A DNA stretch of 64,000 nucleotides from the NCBI RefSeq assembly GCF_038595055.1, contig NZ_CP152002.1, positions 4,756,501 to 4,820,500 on the forward strand, in the 5' to 3' direction. The notes under the pieces were generated by a model. That model saw nothing but the letters and a program-made list of their open reading frames with translations, ran no database searches and had not been told where the DNA came from. The position numbers and the translations under genes were made by a program. Positions 6,572 to 35,566 of this stretch are shown piece by piece (the first letter of the stretch is position 1; each line of letters starts with the position of its first letter). This DNA comes from Paenibacillus sp. FSL R7-0345. GTDB lineage: Bacteria; Bacillota; Bacilli; Paenibacillales; Paenibacillaceae.

Positions 6572-6587
6572 AGTGAAAATTATCACA
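6572..6587. promoter_or_regulatory. Fnr-type box between mapA and fnr
   Basis: AGTGA-N6-TCACA is one base off the Fnr/Crp consensus TGTGA-N6-TCACA. It sits in the 411-base divergent region between mapA (minus) and fnr (plus). The likely fnr -10 element TATAAT is at 6647-6652, which puts the box near -80, an autoregulatory but not class II position. The remainder of the gap is AT-rich and holds no gene. Confidence 0.5.
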
Positions 6588-6700: not shown

Positions 6701-7420
6701 ATGATAAAGGAACATTACAATGTTATCGAAGCCCACGGAAATACAAACTGTTTCTCCGAACAGAATTTCAACAGACTTCTCGTTACAATGAAGGAACGTA
6801 TGGTCCCTGAAGGATCACATTTGTTCTGGGAAGGCGACTACTCGGATAAATTGTTTTATATCAAACGTGGACGCGTGAAGCTGACCAAATCTACAGACGA
6901 AGGCAAGGAACTTATTCTTTATATGTATCAGGCAGGTGATATGGTAGGCCAGGCCGACCCGTTCTTCAGCACGAAGCACAGCTTCACTGCAGAAGTTATT
7001 GAAGAAAGCGAAGTTGGCGTGATTGAACAAAAGGATCTGGAAATTCTGATCTGCCAGCACTGCGATTTCGCAATTGATTTCATGAAGTGGATGGGCATTC
7101 ACCACCGTCTCACGCAGACGAAATTCCGTGATTTGATGATGTACGGCAAACCGGGCGCCCTTTGCTCCACCCTGATCCGTCTTGGCAATACCTATGGCGA
7201 GAAGAATGGCGACAACATCCTGATCAACAAAAAGATTACGCATACGGATCTGTCCAACATGATTGGCGCTACCCGTGAGAGTGTTAACCGGATGCTGAGC
7301 GATCTGCGTAAAAAAGATGCTGTTGAATACGAAAATGGCATGATTGTCATTAAGGATCTTGGCATGCTGCAGGAAATCTGCCATTGCGAAATGTGTCCTA
7401 ACGAAATTTGCCGGATTTAA
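6701..7420 (+). CDS. fnr: Anaerobic transcription regulator Fnr (Bacillus type)
   Basis: A 239-residue Crp/Fnr protein: N-terminal cNMP-binding-like beta roll (about 25-120), dimer helix (about 120-145), and C-terminal winged helix with recognition segment TRESVNRMLSDLRKKD (about 191-206). The cysteine cluster is at the C-terminus, Cys229-x2-Cys232-x4-Cys237 plus Cys227, exactly the spacing of the three cluster ligands of B. subtilis Fnr; Asp144 in KFRDLMMYGK probably matches its fourth ligand Asp141. It should carry a [4Fe-4S] cluster and activate genes when oxygen is absent. The neighbouring nirBDC and ric promoters carry TGTGA-N6-TCACA sites. AAAGGGG precedes the ATG by about 9 bases. Confidence 0.95.
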   Translation: MIKEHYNVIEAHGNTNCFSEQNFNRLLVTMKERMVPEGSHLFWEGDYSDKLFYIKRGRVKLTKSTDEGKELILYMYQAGDMVGQADPFFSTKHSFTAEVIEESEVGVIEQKDLEILICQHCDFAIDFMKWMGIHHRLTQTKFRDLMMYGKPGALCSTLIRLGNTYGEKNGDNILINKKITHTDLSNMIGATRESVNRMLSDLRKKDAVEYENGMIVIKDLGMLQEICHCEMCPNEICRI

Positions 7421-8134: not shown

Positions 8135-8926
8135 TTAACGTTTGCTGAATGTGTTGCGGACAGGAGAGATGAGCCAGTACGCTGCGCCGACGAACAAGCC
8201 GCCGCCGATGATATTGCCAAGCGTAACCGGAATCATGTTGTGCAGCCAGCCGGCTATCGTAACGGTCTCGGGGTGGTTTGGCAGCAGGACAGCTACGCTA
8301 AGCAGGGTCATGTTGGCTACACTGTGCTCATAGCCGCTGGCGATGAAAGCGAACAGGCACCACCAGATGAGCACAAGCTTGGCGGCTTCACTTTTGGCAC
8401 GCGAGGACATCCAGATCGCCAAACAGACGAGCCAGTTACAGAGAATACCGCGGAAGAACAGCTCCGAGAAGGGTAGCGTCATTTTTTTGGCGGCGGCCGC
8501 GAAGATCAGATGCTCCGCAGGGGCAGCCTTAAATAACCCAGTTCCTTGAATTAACAGTGCAAGAATTATGGCACCGGCGACATTACCGATAAAGACGATC
8601 ACCCAGTTTTTGACCGTATCCCATACTGAAGTTCTTCCGGCAAGAGTACTTACGGTAAAAAACATATTGTTCCCGGTGAACAGCTCCGAGCCGGCAAAAA
8701 TAACCAGGGTCAGTGCGATCCCAAAGGAAGCGCCCATTACGAGCGGCTGGAACGGCGATTTAATCGCCGCCAGCGGTGCCCCCAATGAGAAAATTAGAAT
8801 AATTCCGATTCCGACATATGCCCCTGCCAGCAGTGCGGCCAAAAAGTACCGCGGCAAATTTTCATTCATTTTATCCCGTTTGCTGACTGCTGCTTCTACG
8901 ATGTTCTCGACACTTTGCGTAAACAT
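8135..8926 (-). CDS. nirC: Nitrite transporter, formate/nitrite (FNT) family
   Basis: A 263-residue FNT pentameric channel with six hydrophobic segments. Family signatures are present: FAGSELFTGN in the first re-entrant loop region, GILCNWLVCLAIWM before the second, and GYEHSVANM with the conserved central His. It moves nitrite (or formate) across the membrane. As third gene of nirB-nirD-nirC (30-base gap after nirD) it serves nitrite uptake for the reductase or nitrite export during nitrate respiration. GGTGGAGAG lies just before the ATG. The symbol rests on context as well as sequence. Confidence 0.93.
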   Translation of the reverse strand: MFTQSVENIVEAAVSKRDKMNENLPRYFLAALLAGAYVGIGIILIFSLGAPLAAIKSPFQPLVMGASFGIALTLVIFAGSELFTGNNMFFTVSTLAGRTSVWDTVKNWVIVFIGNVAGAIILALLIQGTGLFKAAPAEHLIFAAAAKKMTLPFSELFFRGILCNWLVCLAIWMSSRAKSEAAKLVLIWWCLFAFIASGYEHSVANMTLLSVAVLLPNHPETVTIAGWLHNMIPVTLGNIIGGGLFVGAAYWLISPVRNTFSKR

Positions 8927-8956: not shown

Positions 8957-9298
8957 TTAGCTTTGAATCAAAGTGCCCTGCAGGGTAACCTTCACGCTGT
9001 CACCGTCTACAGTAACAGGGAATGTCGCTACCGTACCGTTATCAGGAGCTTGAACCTCTCCGCTGCGCAGATCAATTTTCCAGTCATACAGCGGATCATA
9101 CAGATAATGTCCGGATACGATTCCTTCCGCGAGCGGACCGCCCTTCGGATGAGGATTCTTGTTCTCCACTGCGAAAATCTGGCCATCCGAGGTTTTGAAC
9201 ACAGCCAGCTCCACAGGACCGCAGCCGATTACACGCCCGATCTGCGGCAGGAAATGCTGAACCGTCCCAATCGTGTACTCATGATTTGTATTTTCCAT
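8957..9298 (-). CDS. nirD: Nitrite reductase small subunit, Rieske-like
   Basis: A 113-residue NirD/NasE-type protein with a Rieske-like beta fold. As in other NirD proteins the cluster ligands are absent: where a Rieske protein has C-x-H and C-x2-H, this one reads NKNPHPKGGPL and GHYLYDPLYDWKIDL. It is the small subunit of NADH-dependent siroheme nitrite reductase and has no cluster of its own. It starts 27 bases after nirB with AGGAGG upstream, and nirC follows, so the three are one operon. Confidence 0.92.
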   Translation of the reverse strand: MENTNHEYTIGTVQHFLPQIGRVIGCGPVELAVFKTSDGQIFAVENKNPHPKGGPLAEGIVSGHYLYDPLYDWKIDLRSGEVQAPDNGTVATFPVTVDGDSVKVTLQGTLIQS

Positions 9299-9325: not shown

Positions 9326-11755
9326 TTAGTGCTGTGCTTTTTCAAACAATGCGCTGCGCGTGTCTTCGTCTTTCAGCATTTTTTCCCATGGATCGGACAC
9401 CTGGGCCAGGGCAAAGTCAATCCGTGCCGCCAGCTCCTTGCGGTTCTCCTCGTTGTTCAGAATGACACTCTGGATCTTTTCAAGACCCATGCGTTCTACC
9501 CACTCCGAGGTTCTTTCCAGATAATTGCCGGTTTCACGGTAGAACTGCATTACAGCAGAGCACACTTCGATCAGCTCTTCATCCGTCTTCACTTTGCAGA
9601 AGGAATCTGCAATACGCGGTTTAATACCGCCGTTACCGCCGATAAATACTTCCCATCCGCCGTCGTTGCCGACGATACCGATGTCCTTGGTGCATGATTC
9701 CGCACAGTTACGCGGGCAGCCGTTAACCGCCATTTTGAACTTGGCCGGGAAATCAAGCCGTTCGTATTTACGCTCAAGGAGTGCGCCCATTCCCATGGAA
9801 TCCTGGGTTCCGAAACGGCAGAACTGGCTGCCGACACAGGTTTTAACAGTACGAAGGGATTTAGCATAAGCATAACCGGATGGCATATCCAGCTCTTCCC
9901 ACACTTTAGGCACATCTTCTTTTTTGACACCAATCAGATCCAGACGCTGTCCGCCGGTTACCTTCACTACCTTCACATCATATTTCAGGGATACATCAGC
10001 AATCCGTTTCAGATCTTCCGGTGTAGTTACACCGCCGTACATACGCGGAACAACTGTAAAGGTACCATCCTTCTGAATATTGGCGCTCATACGCTCATTG
10101 ACAAAACGTGATTCTTTCTCGTCTTCATGAGTGTCCGGATAAATCATGCCCAGGTAGTAGTTGACGGCCGGACGGCATTTGGAGCAGCCTTCAGGCTGTT
10201 TCCACTCCAGCACGTTCATAACTTCCTTGGTAGTCTTGAGTCCCTTCGCTGTAATCTCAGCAACAATTTCATCACGGCTGAGCGAGGTACAGCCGCAGAT
10301 TCCGGCTTTGGCGCTCTCTTTAAAGCTGTCACCGAGCACGAACTGGAGGATCTGTTCAACAACCGGCTTACAGCCGCCGCATGAACGTGTTGCTCCGGTG
10401 CAGGCTTTAATTTCATCAACAGTTGTAAAGCCGTTCTCTGTCACCGCATCGACAATCGCTTTTTTGGTAACCCCGTTACAGCCGCAGACGATTTCTTCAT
10501 CAGCCATCGCTTCTACGGACATACCCTTTTTGGCACTTCCCCCGCTGCCGCAGCAGCCGGTTCCCATTACTTCGCTGTAAATCTCATCCGTCATCTCTGT
10601 GCCTTGTTTCACAAGCTTTTGCAGATTAGCAGATTCGGTTACATCACCGAACAGTACCGCACCGACGATCACATTATTTTTGAGCAAAATCTTCTTATAG
10701 GTTCTCTTCCACTCATCTTTGGCAGAGATAACAGTATGCTCCGGTGTATCCGTAAACTCACCTGCCGAAAAGACATCCACGCCGGAAATTTTCAGCTTAG
10801 TCGATACAACCGAACCTTCATACGGCTGGGTAGCTGCTCCGCACAGGTGCTTCGCCAATACCATTCCCTGTTCGAACAATGGGGCTACCAGACCGTAGCA
10901 GGTACCGCGGTGCTCTGTACATTCACCAACGGAGTAAACATTCTCCATCGAAGTCTGCAGGTAATCGTCAACGACAATCCCGCGGTTTACGGTGATGCCG
11001 CTGTCTTTGGCCAGCTGGGTATTCGGCTTGATGCCTACTGCCATAACCACAAAATCCGCCTGCAGCTCGGTGCCGTCACTGAATCTTAGTCCGTTAACGC
11101 GTTCATCTCCGGTCAATTCCGCTGTCTGCTTGCCCATCGCGAACTTCACACCTTGGCGTGTAAGCTCTGCCTGCAGCATCGACGATGCGGTGTGGTCAAG
11201 CTGGCGCTCCATCAGATCCTCAAGCAGATGCACTACTGTTACATCCATGCCGAGGTTAACCAGTCCTTTTGCCGCTTCAAGCCCGAGCAGGCCGCCGCCG
11301 ATTACTGCTGCTGTACGGTACTGCTTGGCCGCCGCCAGCATGGCATCACAGTCAGCAATGTCGCGGAACCCCACCACGCCTTCTTTGGTGCTGCCTGGAA
11401 CAGGCAGAATGAAGGAGTTGGAGCCTGTTGCAATAATGACTTTATCGTAAGGAACAGCCTGTCCGTTATCTGCGATAACCTGGCGGGATTCCTCATCGAT
11501 CTTTACAACCGTAGTTCCTGTATGCAGGGTAATGTTGTTATCTGCGTACCACTGGCGGTCATTTAGAATAATATCTTCAATACTTTTGCTGCCTTCAAGT
11601 ACATAGGACAGCATAATCCGGTTATAGTTGGGGTGAGGCTCACTGCCGAAGATCGTAATATCATAAGCGCCGCCCAGCTTCAAAATCTGTTCAATAGTCC
11701 CTACGCCTGCCATCCCGTTGCCTATCAATACTAACTTTTGTCTCTCCATTCTCAC
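9326..11755 (-). CDS. nirB: NADH-dependent nitrite reductase large subunit
   Basis: An 809-residue NirB/NasD protein that reduces nitrite to ammonium with NADH. Domains in order: FAD/NAD oxidoreductase (starts LVLIGNGMAG), two BFD-like [2Fe-2S] modules (VCGCNGVTK...CTGATRSCGGC and GICGCTSLS...GCSKCRP), then the ferredoxin half-domain and siroheme/[4Fe-4S] domain with C-x5-C (CVGSQFC) and C-x3-C (CPRNC). I chose the GTG at 11755 because GGGGAGG lies 8 bases before it; the next ATG (11749) would be 14 bases away. First gene of nirBDC. Two palindromes upstream suggest Fnr control, which argues for an anaerobic dissimilatory role; no assimilatory nitrate reductase gene is visible here. Confidence 0.95.
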   Translation of the reverse strand: MRMERQKLVLIGNGMAGVGTIEQILKLGGAYDITIFGSEPHPNYNRIMLSYVLEGSKSIEDIILNDRQWYADNNITLHTGTTVVKIDEESRQVIADNGQAVPYDKVIIATGSNSFILPVPGSTKEGVVGFRDIADCDAMLAAAKQYRTAAVIGGGLLGLEAAKGLVNLGMDVTVVHLLEDLMERQLDHTASSMLQAELTRQGVKFAMGKQTAELTGDERVNGLRFSDGTELQADFVVMAVGIKPNTQLAKDSGITVNRGIVVDDYLQTSMENVYSVGECTEHRGTCYGLVAPLFEQGMVLAKHLCGAATQPYEGSVVSTKLKISGVDVFSAGEFTDTPEHTVISAKDEWKRTYKKILLKNNVIVGAVLFGDVTESANLQKLVKQGTEMTDEIYSEVMGTGCCGSGGSAKKGMSVEAMADEEIVCGCNGVTKKAIVDAVTENGFTTVDEIKACTGATRSCGGCKPVVEQILQFVLGDSFKESAKAGICGCTSLSRDEIVAEITAKGLKTTKEVMNVLEWKQPEGCSKCRPAVNYYLGMIYPDTHEDEKESRFVNERMSANIQKDGTFTVVPRMYGGVTTPEDLKRIADVSLKYDVKVVKVTGGQRLDLIGVKKEDVPKVWEELDMPSGYAYAKSLRTVKTCVGSQFCRFGTQDSMGMGALLERKYERLDFPAKFKMAVNGCPRNCAESCTKDIGIVGNDGGWEVFIGGNGGIKPRIADSFCKVKTDEELIEVCSAVMQFYRETGNYLERTSEWVERMGLEKIQSVILNNEENRKELAARIDFALAQVSDPWEKMLKDEDTRSALFEKAQH

Positions 11756-11812
11756 TGTTAAAACCTCCCCGAAGCTTTTAAAAAATCCTTTTGCTTTCTA
11801 TCTCGTATCTGA

Positions 11813-11818
11813 ATTATA
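11813..11818 (-). promoter_or_regulatory. nirB promoter -10 element
   Basis: The minus strand reads TATAAT here, with no good -35. Transcription would start near 11806, about 50 bases before the nirB GTG. The upstream Fnr box is centred about 42 bases before that start, the class II activator position. Confidence 0.6.
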
Positions 11819-11840
11819 CATTTTAAATTTAAATGGCATT

Positions 11841-11856
11841 TGTGATTAGAATCACA
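11841..11856. promoter_or_regulatory. Perfect Fnr box upstream of nirB
   Basis: TGTGATTAGAATCACA matches the Bacillus Fnr consensus TGTGA-N6-TCACA in every fixed position. It is centred near -42 from the predicted nirB start, where Fnr activates in B. subtilis. Confidence 0.8.
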
Positions 11857-11860
11857 TTAA

Positions 11861-11878
11861 TTGTGAATGTTTTCACAA
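11861..11878. promoter_or_regulatory. Second palindrome upstream of nirB, Fnr or Rex site
   Basis: TTGTGAATGTTTTCACAA is a perfect Fnr box (TGTGA-N6-TCACA) and also exactly the Rex operator consensus TTGTGAA-N4-TTCACAA. It is centred 21 bases upstream of the first box, two helical turns away, near -63. Confidence 0.75.
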
Positions 11879-12868: not shown

Positions 12869-13600
12869 TTATGCTTGTTGATAACGCAAGAACAGGTTGT
12901 TGTTCTCAAGGTGTACATGCTCGAAGGTCATGCCTTCCAGCTCTTCAAGCCGGGCATAGGTCAGACGGTAAGTGGTGCAGGCATGCGGCGGCGGGGTGAA
13001 GTCATTAGTAACCGCACGCAGCTCACGCAGAATTTCGCCGGCCCCATCATGCTCCTGCTCCAGATTGTGCAGCAGTTCATGCAGCTCAGCCAATTTTTGC
13101 TCGCTTGGATTTTCGCTGTAAGCCAGCATTTTAGGGAATTCCACTTCCTCTTCCTGTGCTGTGTGCTTCAGCAGATCTTCACGCAGCAGGTTGAACAGAC
13201 GGTGCACTTCAGCCAGATGAGGGGAATCATCGCCGTGGACACGGAAGACCTTGGTTACGTTCTGGCTGATCTGCGGAAGCTCTTCACGGAGGTAGCGGTG
13301 ATGCTTGTTCACAATATGCTCAACCAGCTCACGGGACGAGGCCTGATTCCATTTCGTATCTTCTTCTAGTACAGGATGCTCCTCTACCAGCTTGTGCAGA
13401 TCTCCGAGCAGCTGGTCTGCATTCAGACCCTTTTCTTCGGCTGCTTCAGCCAGCGGCTTGGCGCCACCGCAGCAAAAGTCGATCCGCTGTCCTTTGAAAT
13501 AATCTGCTGCTTTCGGAAATTGCAGTACGATATCTCTTACAAAATCTTCACCGCTGAAGCTAAGCTGTTCTGTTGTATGGTTTAGTTGATTGGCCGTCAT
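12869..13600 (-). CDS. ric: Iron-sulfur cluster repair di-iron protein (RIC/ScdA/YtfE)
   Basis: A 243-residue RIC protein that repairs iron-sulfur clusters damaged by nitric oxide or peroxide. The N-terminal ScdA_N (DUF542) domain carries the conserved IDFCCGG (about 40-46); the hemerythrin-like bundle holds the di-iron ligands in HIVNKHHRYLREELP, HTAQEEEVEFP, ELLHNLEQEHDGAGE and FEHVHLENNNLFLR. The start MTANQLN is chosen because AAAGGGAGGG lies 6 bases before it; a longer frame reaches 17 codons further up. The position beside nirBDC fits a nitrosative-stress role, since nitrite reduction yields NO as a by-product. A degenerate Fnr-type site is found in its promoter. Confidence 0.93.
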   Translation of the reverse strand: MTANQLNHTTEQLSFSGEDFVRDIVLQFPKAADYFKGQRIDFCCGGAKPLAEAAEEKGLNADQLLGDLHKLVEEHPVLEEDTKWNQASSRELVEHIVNKHHRYLREELPQISQNVTKVFRVHGDDSPHLAEVHRLFNLLREDLLKHTAQEEEVEFPKMLAYSENPSEQKLAELHELLHNLEQEHDGAGEILRELRAVTNDFTPPPHACTTYRLTYARLEELEGMTFEHVHLENNNLFLRYQQA

Positions 13601-13647
13601 AATAGGCCCTCCCTTTGTTATTGGTCTAGGTTCTTTCTTACCTCTAC

Positions 13648-13690
13648 ACAATAACGCTTAGCCAAACCCCGGCTTGTGATTTTACGCACT
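13648..13690 (-). promoter_or_regulatory. Predicted ric promoter with degenerate Fnr-type site
   Basis: The minus strand reads TATTGT at 13648-13653 as a possible -10. A TGTGA-N6-GCACT site (13675-13690; 8 of 10 fixed bases match Fnr) is centred 41.5 bases upstream of the implied start, the usual Fnr distance. Confidence 0.4.
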
Positions 13691-35065: not shown

Positions 35066-35566
35066 TTAGTCCTGATTCCGCAGCAGCCGGTTCACCGTTT
35101 CACGCCGTACACCAATCAATTGTCCAATTTCTTCCTGGGTTAACAGATCTGTCAGCTGTGCGCCGTAAGCGTAATCTTTCATCCAGCGGTTAAGCAGCTC
35201 CATGCGTTCAGCAGGTGAGCCGACAGTCAGGTGATCCAGCCGGGTCTGCATAAACCGGACCTTCTCCTGGAGCAGCAGCGCAATCTCCATCACTTTGTCC
35301 GGATTCTCGCGCAGCTCCCGGTACCATTCCGCCGCCGGAACGATCTCAATCTCGCTCTTGATCATTGCAACAGCCGTTCCATGCGCCTCCTTAGGCGAAA
35401 TGAGGGAATGATGGGGGACGGTCTCACCGGGATACAGCAGATTGAACAGCACCATATTCCCGTTCTCATGCAGCCTCGTTACTTTGAACAGCCCGCTTTT
35501 CACCTTATACAGATATTCGCAGCTGTCTCCCTGACGGAACAAGACTTCCCCTCTGTGCAGAATCAT
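35066..35566 (-). CDS. Short Crp/Fnr-family regulator
   Basis: A 166-residue regulator, shorter than the family norm of 220-240. The cNMP-binding-like roll starts almost at the N-terminus (HRGEVLFRQGDSCEYLYKVKSGLFKV) and the C-terminal HTH is truncated after QEEIGQLIGVRRETVNRLLRNQD, lacking the wing strands. Residues for cAMP or an iron-sulfur cluster are absent. AAAGGAGAG precedes the ATG. It lies between yitT and the fructose operon; a twin palindrome follows directly and might be its site. Confidence 0.88.
   Translation of the reverse strand: MILHRGEVLFRQGDSCEYLYKVKSGLFKVTRLHENGNMVLFNLLYPGETVPHHSLISPKEAHGTAVAMIKSEIEIVPAAEWYRELRENPDKVMEIALLLQEKVRFMQTRLDHLTVGSPAERMELLNRWMKDYAYGAQLTDLLTQEEIGQLIGVRRETVNRLLRNQD

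Follow-up and report, generated by a model that had tools for sequence, protein, structure and literature searches.

Paired Fnr-type and Rex-type palindromes upstream of nirB in Paenibacillus: a candidate two-input redox switch

Which regulators read the two palindromes that stand upstream of nirB in the soil bacterium Paenibacillus sp. FSL R7-0345? A preliminary description had proposed joint control by oxygen (through Fnr) and by NADH (through Rex), with an Fnr box at -42 and a combined Fnr/Rex site at -63. The stretch of DNA analyzed, referred to as the window, comprises 64 kb (positions 4,756,501 to 4,820,500 of contig NZ_CP152002.1). Within it, the pattern TGTGA-N6-TCACA is matched exactly at only two places, both upstream of nirB, at 11841-11856 (TGTGATTAGAATCACA) and 11862-11877 (TGTGAATGTTTTCACA), whose centers are 21 bp, or two helix turns, apart. 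With up to two mismatches allowed, the window shows no excess of matches (14 observed versus 22.5 expected), so only exact matches are informative. The 6.98 Mb genome as a whole contains 18 exact matches, versus 2 for a reversed control pattern. The distal palindrome lies within an 18-mer (11861-11878) that is the genome's sole perfect match to the Rex consensus TTGTGAA-N4-TTCACAA; the proximal box has 3 mismatches to it. Sites with up to two mismatches to this consensus number 45 genome-wide, versus 15 for the control. The two perfect palindromes, their 21-base spacing and the identity of the upstream one with the Rex consensus were thus confirmed as described. Coordinates of all features are collected in Table 1.

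Table 1. Features of the nirB promoter and the adjoining genes (window coordinates).
Feature	Position	Strand	Basis
Distal box, Rex-type	11861..11878	-	TTGTGAA-N4-TTCACAA, with an Fnr core inside at 11862-11877; center ~-63.5
Proximal box, Fnr-type	11841..11856	-	minus strand reads TGTGATTCTAATCACA, exact TGTGA-N6-TCACA; center ~-42.5
Conserved A/T block TTnAAATTTnAA, between Fnr box and -10	11822..11833	-	column conservation, low change counts
Predicted -10 hexamer of nirB, TATAAT	11813..11818	-	best -10 on the minus strand
nirB, NADH-dependent nitrite reductase large subunit	9326..11755	-	TIGR02374, 1028.5 bits versus cut-off 578.35
nirD, small subunit	8957..9298	-	TIGR02378, 76.5 bits versus cut-off 74.65
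nirC-like formate/nitrite transporter	8135..8926	-	TIGR00790, 245.8 bits versus cut-off 232.3
fnr, convergent to nirBDC	6701..7420	+	Pfam cNMP_binding and HTH_Crp_2 over cut-off

Genes for both regulators are present. The Fnr encoded in the window is the only one of the genome's seven cNMP-binding-domain proteins to carry a C-terminal CxxCxxxxC, which we take to be the ligand pattern of the iron-sulfur Fnr of Bacillus, and its recognition helix reads RESVNR. An fnr relative is convergent to nirB in the available flank of 45 of 80 nirB loci. A one-mismatch box (AGTGAAAATTATCACA, 6572-6587) stands upstream of fnr, possibly for autoregulation. Two further Crp/Fnr-like proteins have a similar recognition helix (L231, RETISR; L235, RETVNR); L235, a cNMP-domain regulator of the Crp/Fnr kind, is encoded inside the window at about 35306-35560. 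The genome's own rex scores 288.1 bits versus a cut-off of 126, its product matches solved Rex structures (E 9e-44 at best), and rex was found over the cut-off in 60 of 61 genomes of the genus. A RIC/ScdA-type iron-sulfur cluster repair gene lies near nirB at 12869-13651 and may be compared with the region described in B. cereus (PMC8151001).

The predicted -10 hexamer begins 22 bases past the proximal 16-mer, an offset shared, within the window's clade, by 18 of 21 promoters and, in Saccharibacillus, by 5/5. If the hexamer is taken to span -12 to -7, the predicted start falls near 11806, and from this start the box centers given in Table 1 agree with the -42 and -63 proposed before. The proximal box is therefore near the class II position of -41.5, as judged from the predicted -10. 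No sigma-70 promoter with a -35 element was found at nirB by a consensus scan, as would be expected if the promoter were activator-dependent. The A/T block TTnAAATTTnAA is more conserved than its surroundings. NsrR was considered as its reader and rejected, since the NsrR consensus finds no match: ATGYAT-N5-ATRCAT, allowing up to two mismatches, does not occur between 11700 and 11900. The genome does encode an NsrR-like protein (L133), which falls short of the cut-off (129.6 bits versus 182).

The reading that we favor, and hold to be reasonably probable on the sequence evidence, treats the nirBDC promoter as a redox switch with two inputs, in which Fnr would activate from -42 and Rex would repress from -63. 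When oxygen is lacking, Fnr on the proximal box would serve as a class II activator of RNA polymerase, and NAD-bound Rex on the distal box would keep expression low until a rise in NADH releases it. NirB, which consumes NADH, would then be made only without oxygen and with NADH in excess. Because the Fnr core is retained in the distal box of the window genome, Fnr may occupy that box after Rex departs, and the two proteins may compete there. A position of -63 is unusual for a repressor, which we count against the two-input reading. For CAP, class I activation works from -61.5 and class II from -41.5 (PMC7192510), and a Rex dimer at -63 might occupy the place beside Fnr where the polymerase's alpha C-terminal domain would otherwise dock. 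We infer the occupant of each box, the direction of its effect and this docking block, the last because no density for the alpha C-terminal domain was seen in the available part of the CAP study (PMC7192510).

To follow the pair through evolution, 81 nirB promoters (80 related loci plus the window) were compared, with pairing called by a mismatch rule. A pair was present in 50 of the 81, at exactly 21 bp in 47 and at 20, 22 and 25 bp once each; 28 of the 81 promoters had unpaired boxes only and three had no box, and in several species a single box stands upstream of nirB. If the second palindrome were a functionless chance likeness and the proximal Fnr box alone mattered, promoters such as these 28 are what one would see. 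The 47 promoters paired at exactly 21 bp and the conservation described below contradict this view. So does the relaxed tandem GTGA-N6-TCAC-N7-GTGA-N6-TCAC, which is found in 98 of 100 Paenibacillus genomes, with one to four copies each, whereas its reversed control is found in none (0/100). Chance as the origin of the pair was rejected on this control, and we regard a functionless second palindrome as extremely improbable.

Near-identical promoters (four, by a 93% rule) were removed from the 47 twin promoters to give a non-redundant set of 43, consisting of the window's clade (21), a clade designated B (17) and Saccharibacillus (5). Promoters were assigned to clades by hand before the tree was made, and for the window's group the assignment matches a clade of the NirB tree; by NirB identity, the window genome is near P. 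typhae and P. camerounensis. Boxes were designated Rex-type if they read GTGAA-N4-TTCAC, Fnr-type if neither inner base was so, and half-type otherwise. Note that these classes were set after inspecting nirB. Proximal boxes were Fnr-type in 27 promoters, half-type in 16 and never Rex-type (0/43); distal boxes were Rex-type in 31, half-type in 12 and never Fnr-type. In the window's clade (21/21) and in Saccharibacillus (5/5, a small and closely related sample), every promoter combines a Rex-type distal with a Fnr-type proximal box. For clade B, 11 of 17 promoters are half-type at both boxes, five have a Rex-type distal and a half-type proximal box, and one has a half-type distal and a Fnr-type proximal box. 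The Rex-type distal core is thus found in 26/26 of the former two groups but in 5/17 of clade B, which, with its mostly broken core, was retained in all totals.

The two boxes are under separate constraint. Parsimony on the NirB tree, which corrects only in part for the kinship of the counted sequences, inferred no change within the clade of 21 at positions 5, 6 and 10 of the distal box, compared with 6, 7 and 4 changes at its spacer positions 7-9, a mean of 7.46 for the upstream flank columns, and 4 and 3 changes at positions 5 and 10 of the proximal box. Judged by its sequence, the proximal nirB box is evolving as an Fnr site would. Within the window's clade, 18 of the 21 distal boxes are also exact Fnr cores. 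In Saccharibacillus a perfect Fnr core is absent from all five distal boxes, each of which keeps the Rex-type core; together with the conservation of the inner distal bases within the clade, this suggests that the distal box may serve as an operator for Rex alone and not for Fnr and Rex in common. Comparison lends partial support to joint control by Fnr and Rex, as first proposed; in the window the distal box carries both cores. The Rex signature is not universal at nirB, given that distal boxes in clade B are mostly half-type and that several species have one box only.

An alternative is that Fnr reads both boxes, two dimers acting from the class II and class I places, so that anaerobic activation would be strong or cooperative. 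Rex would then have no role, its consensus merely overlapping that of Fnr in TGTGA...TCACA. Both window boxes being exact Fnr cores, as distal boxes are through most of the clade, is what two Fnr dimers would require, and the prevalence in clade B of half-type sequence at both boxes fits as well. Such an arrangement leaves the retention of the distal inner bases unexplained, since a box read by Fnr, to judge from the proximal one, shows no preference for Rex-type inner bases, and it is at odds with the Saccharibacillus distal boxes, which lost the perfect Fnr core and kept that of Rex. We consider it unlikely that Fnr alone serves both boxes.

For comparison with a standard Rex target, sequences upstream of adhE were collected from 30 loci, of which one was unreadable. 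WTGTGAA-N4-TTCACTA was present in 29/29 readable loci, and the adhE site and the distal nirB box share the core GTGAA-N4-TTCAC. In the available sections of a study of S. aureus Rex, changing position 1, 4, 5, 6 or 7 of the half-site weakened binding, position 7 (the inner A) was required, an A/T-rich spacer was best, and perfect sites such as that of nirC gave the strongest binding; some fragments resembling TGTGA-N6-TCACA (pgi, 5S rRNA and hemE) were not shifted by Rex (PMC2883068). These data also bear on whether a different Crp/Fnr-family member encoded in this genome might read the distal box, in response to another signal. The seven cNMP-binding-domain proteins, with the similar recognition helices of L231 and L235, supply candidates for such a reader. 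The conserved core is nevertheless that of the adhE Rex operator and of the S. aureus Rex consensus, which makes a paralogue unnecessary, and we think this explanation improbable.

The genus has few perfect copies of the Rex consensus: 15 sites, spread over 14 of 61 genomes. This scarcity counts against two-input control at nirB. Six of the 15 precede flavocytochrome c-like genes (L143, L145, L147, L148, L153, L155), three precede genes for PplA-like lipoproteins (L142, L146, L149) and two precede nirB. Note that gene kinds at these sites were assigned by likeness of the N-terminus, with four left without confident assignment; one flavocytochrome c-like and one PplA-like representative were checked further, as was the flavocytochrome c gene of the window genome itself. 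The sites at the flavocytochrome c-like and PplA-like genes are a hint, from sequence, that Rex may control electron transfer to outside acceptors. Exact Fnr cores were also searched by eye for the Rex-type core, which was found in 6 of the 75 listed (five genomes, one in part): two nirB distal boxes, one partner box of a DoxX-like gene (L192), one site before adhE and two others.

Spacing was surveyed in 25 genomes for gaps of 1 to 31 bases. Among the 75 pairs listed of 118 counted, the centers were 21 bp apart in 30, 20 bp apart in two and 22 bp apart in five. The 30 listed pairs at 21 bp comprised 13 of a Fnr-type with a Rex-type box, 10 of two Fnr-type boxes and none of two Rex-type boxes. 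The tandem loci inspected were mainly at nirB, at a gene for a DoxX/DoxD-like membrane protein, at pflB, and at a divergent FMN-binding lipoprotein/hemH-like pair (the names pflB and hemH being assigned by eye). At the DoxX/DoxD-like gene (L220, L215, L216, L223 and others) a Fnr-type box is centered at -41.5 in 14/14 loci, and its partner lies downstream at -20.5, beside the -10, as a Rex-type box in four and a half-type box in ten. Taken with nirB, these box classes indicate that the class II place is never Rex-type and that the partner stands two helical turns to either side. At pflB both tandem boxes are Fnr-type in 13/13 loci, and a Rex-like site is separate and downstream. The first pflB box is GTGACAAATATCAC in all 13. 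In the window genome this locus (L112, G000:C1:4744640-4744674, outside the window) is a 35-bp palindrome, GTGACAAATATCAC-N7-GTGATATTTGTCAC, with the Rex-like TTGTGAATTTTATAACAA downstream. Homotypic Fnr-type pairs with the nirB spacing therefore probably exist in the genus, a point in favor of Fnr at both nirB boxes. A 21-bp tandem also occurs between the FMN-binding lipoprotein gene and the divergent hemH-like gene (L228, G000:C1:1520231-1520265). Before an NADH oxidase-like gene (L015, G000:C1:6600541-6600585), TGTGATTTTTCTCACA occurs twice, identically, 29 bp apart.

On balance, several results argue for two inputs at nirB: the disjoint box classes, the lack of change in the distal inner bases, the core shared with adhE, the presence of rex, the adjoining fnr and the dominance of the 21-bp spacing. 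Clade B, with few Rex-type distal boxes, and the promoters with unpaired boxes or none imply that in some species the Rex input is dispensable. The recurrence of 21-bp pairing across the genus suggests a reusable two-signal switch. More tentatively, and as a possibility rather than a probability, Paenibacillus may possess a modular composite operator in which a Fnr dimer near -41.5 is joined by a second dimer site, often Rex-type, two helical turns upstream or downstream. The fixed register would then permit direct contact or exclusion between Fnr and Rex, and the whole would act as a logic gate for low oxygen and excess NADH.

Taken singly, Fnr sites and Rex sites are familiar elements. At E. 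coli nirB, FNR is placed at -41.5, close to the position predicted for Fnr at Paenibacillus nirB, and the upstream input is NarL/NarP rather than the Rex proposed here. The precedent cited in the preliminary description, Rex control of nitrite genes in S. aureus, is correct: Rex shifts nirC strongly, at a perfect site, and shifts the nir operon more weakly, at a site upstream of nirR with three mismatches (Kd 2.7e-7 M) (PMC2883068). TTGTGAA-W4-TTCACAA likewise precedes nitrite genes there; however, no paired Fnr box is seen in the available part of that report, NreBC and SrrAB are used and the nir site is weak (PMC2883068). In the window genome a perfect match to the Rex consensus is paired, at 21 bp, with an Fnr box on its downstream side. 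At B. cereus ldhA one promoter region carries a Rex motif that overlaps motifs for Fnr and for ResD; the sections available describe neither a pair held at 21 bp nor a nitrite gene (PMC4162614). The B. cereus ric-nitrite reductase region also has a predicted Fnr site before nitrite reductase and ric nearby, but with one Fnr site reported in the available sections and no mention of Rex in the text (PMC8151001). In Paenibacillus sp. WLY78, fnr and nitrite-reductase genes are up under nitrogen fixation, Rex being unmentioned in the available part of that article (PMC4774088). A search of open-licence papers, mostly at the level of title and start of abstract, found no report of Fnr/Rex control of Paenibacillus nirB; absence from print is not claimed.

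A rigid register of two helical turns between Fnr-type and Rex-type boxes, reused across promoters of the genus, would show integration of oxygen and NADH at a single promoter. With its partner box upstream at nirB and downstream at the DoxX-like gene, the genus offers a natural pair in which to ask whether a single repressor is able to act on either side.
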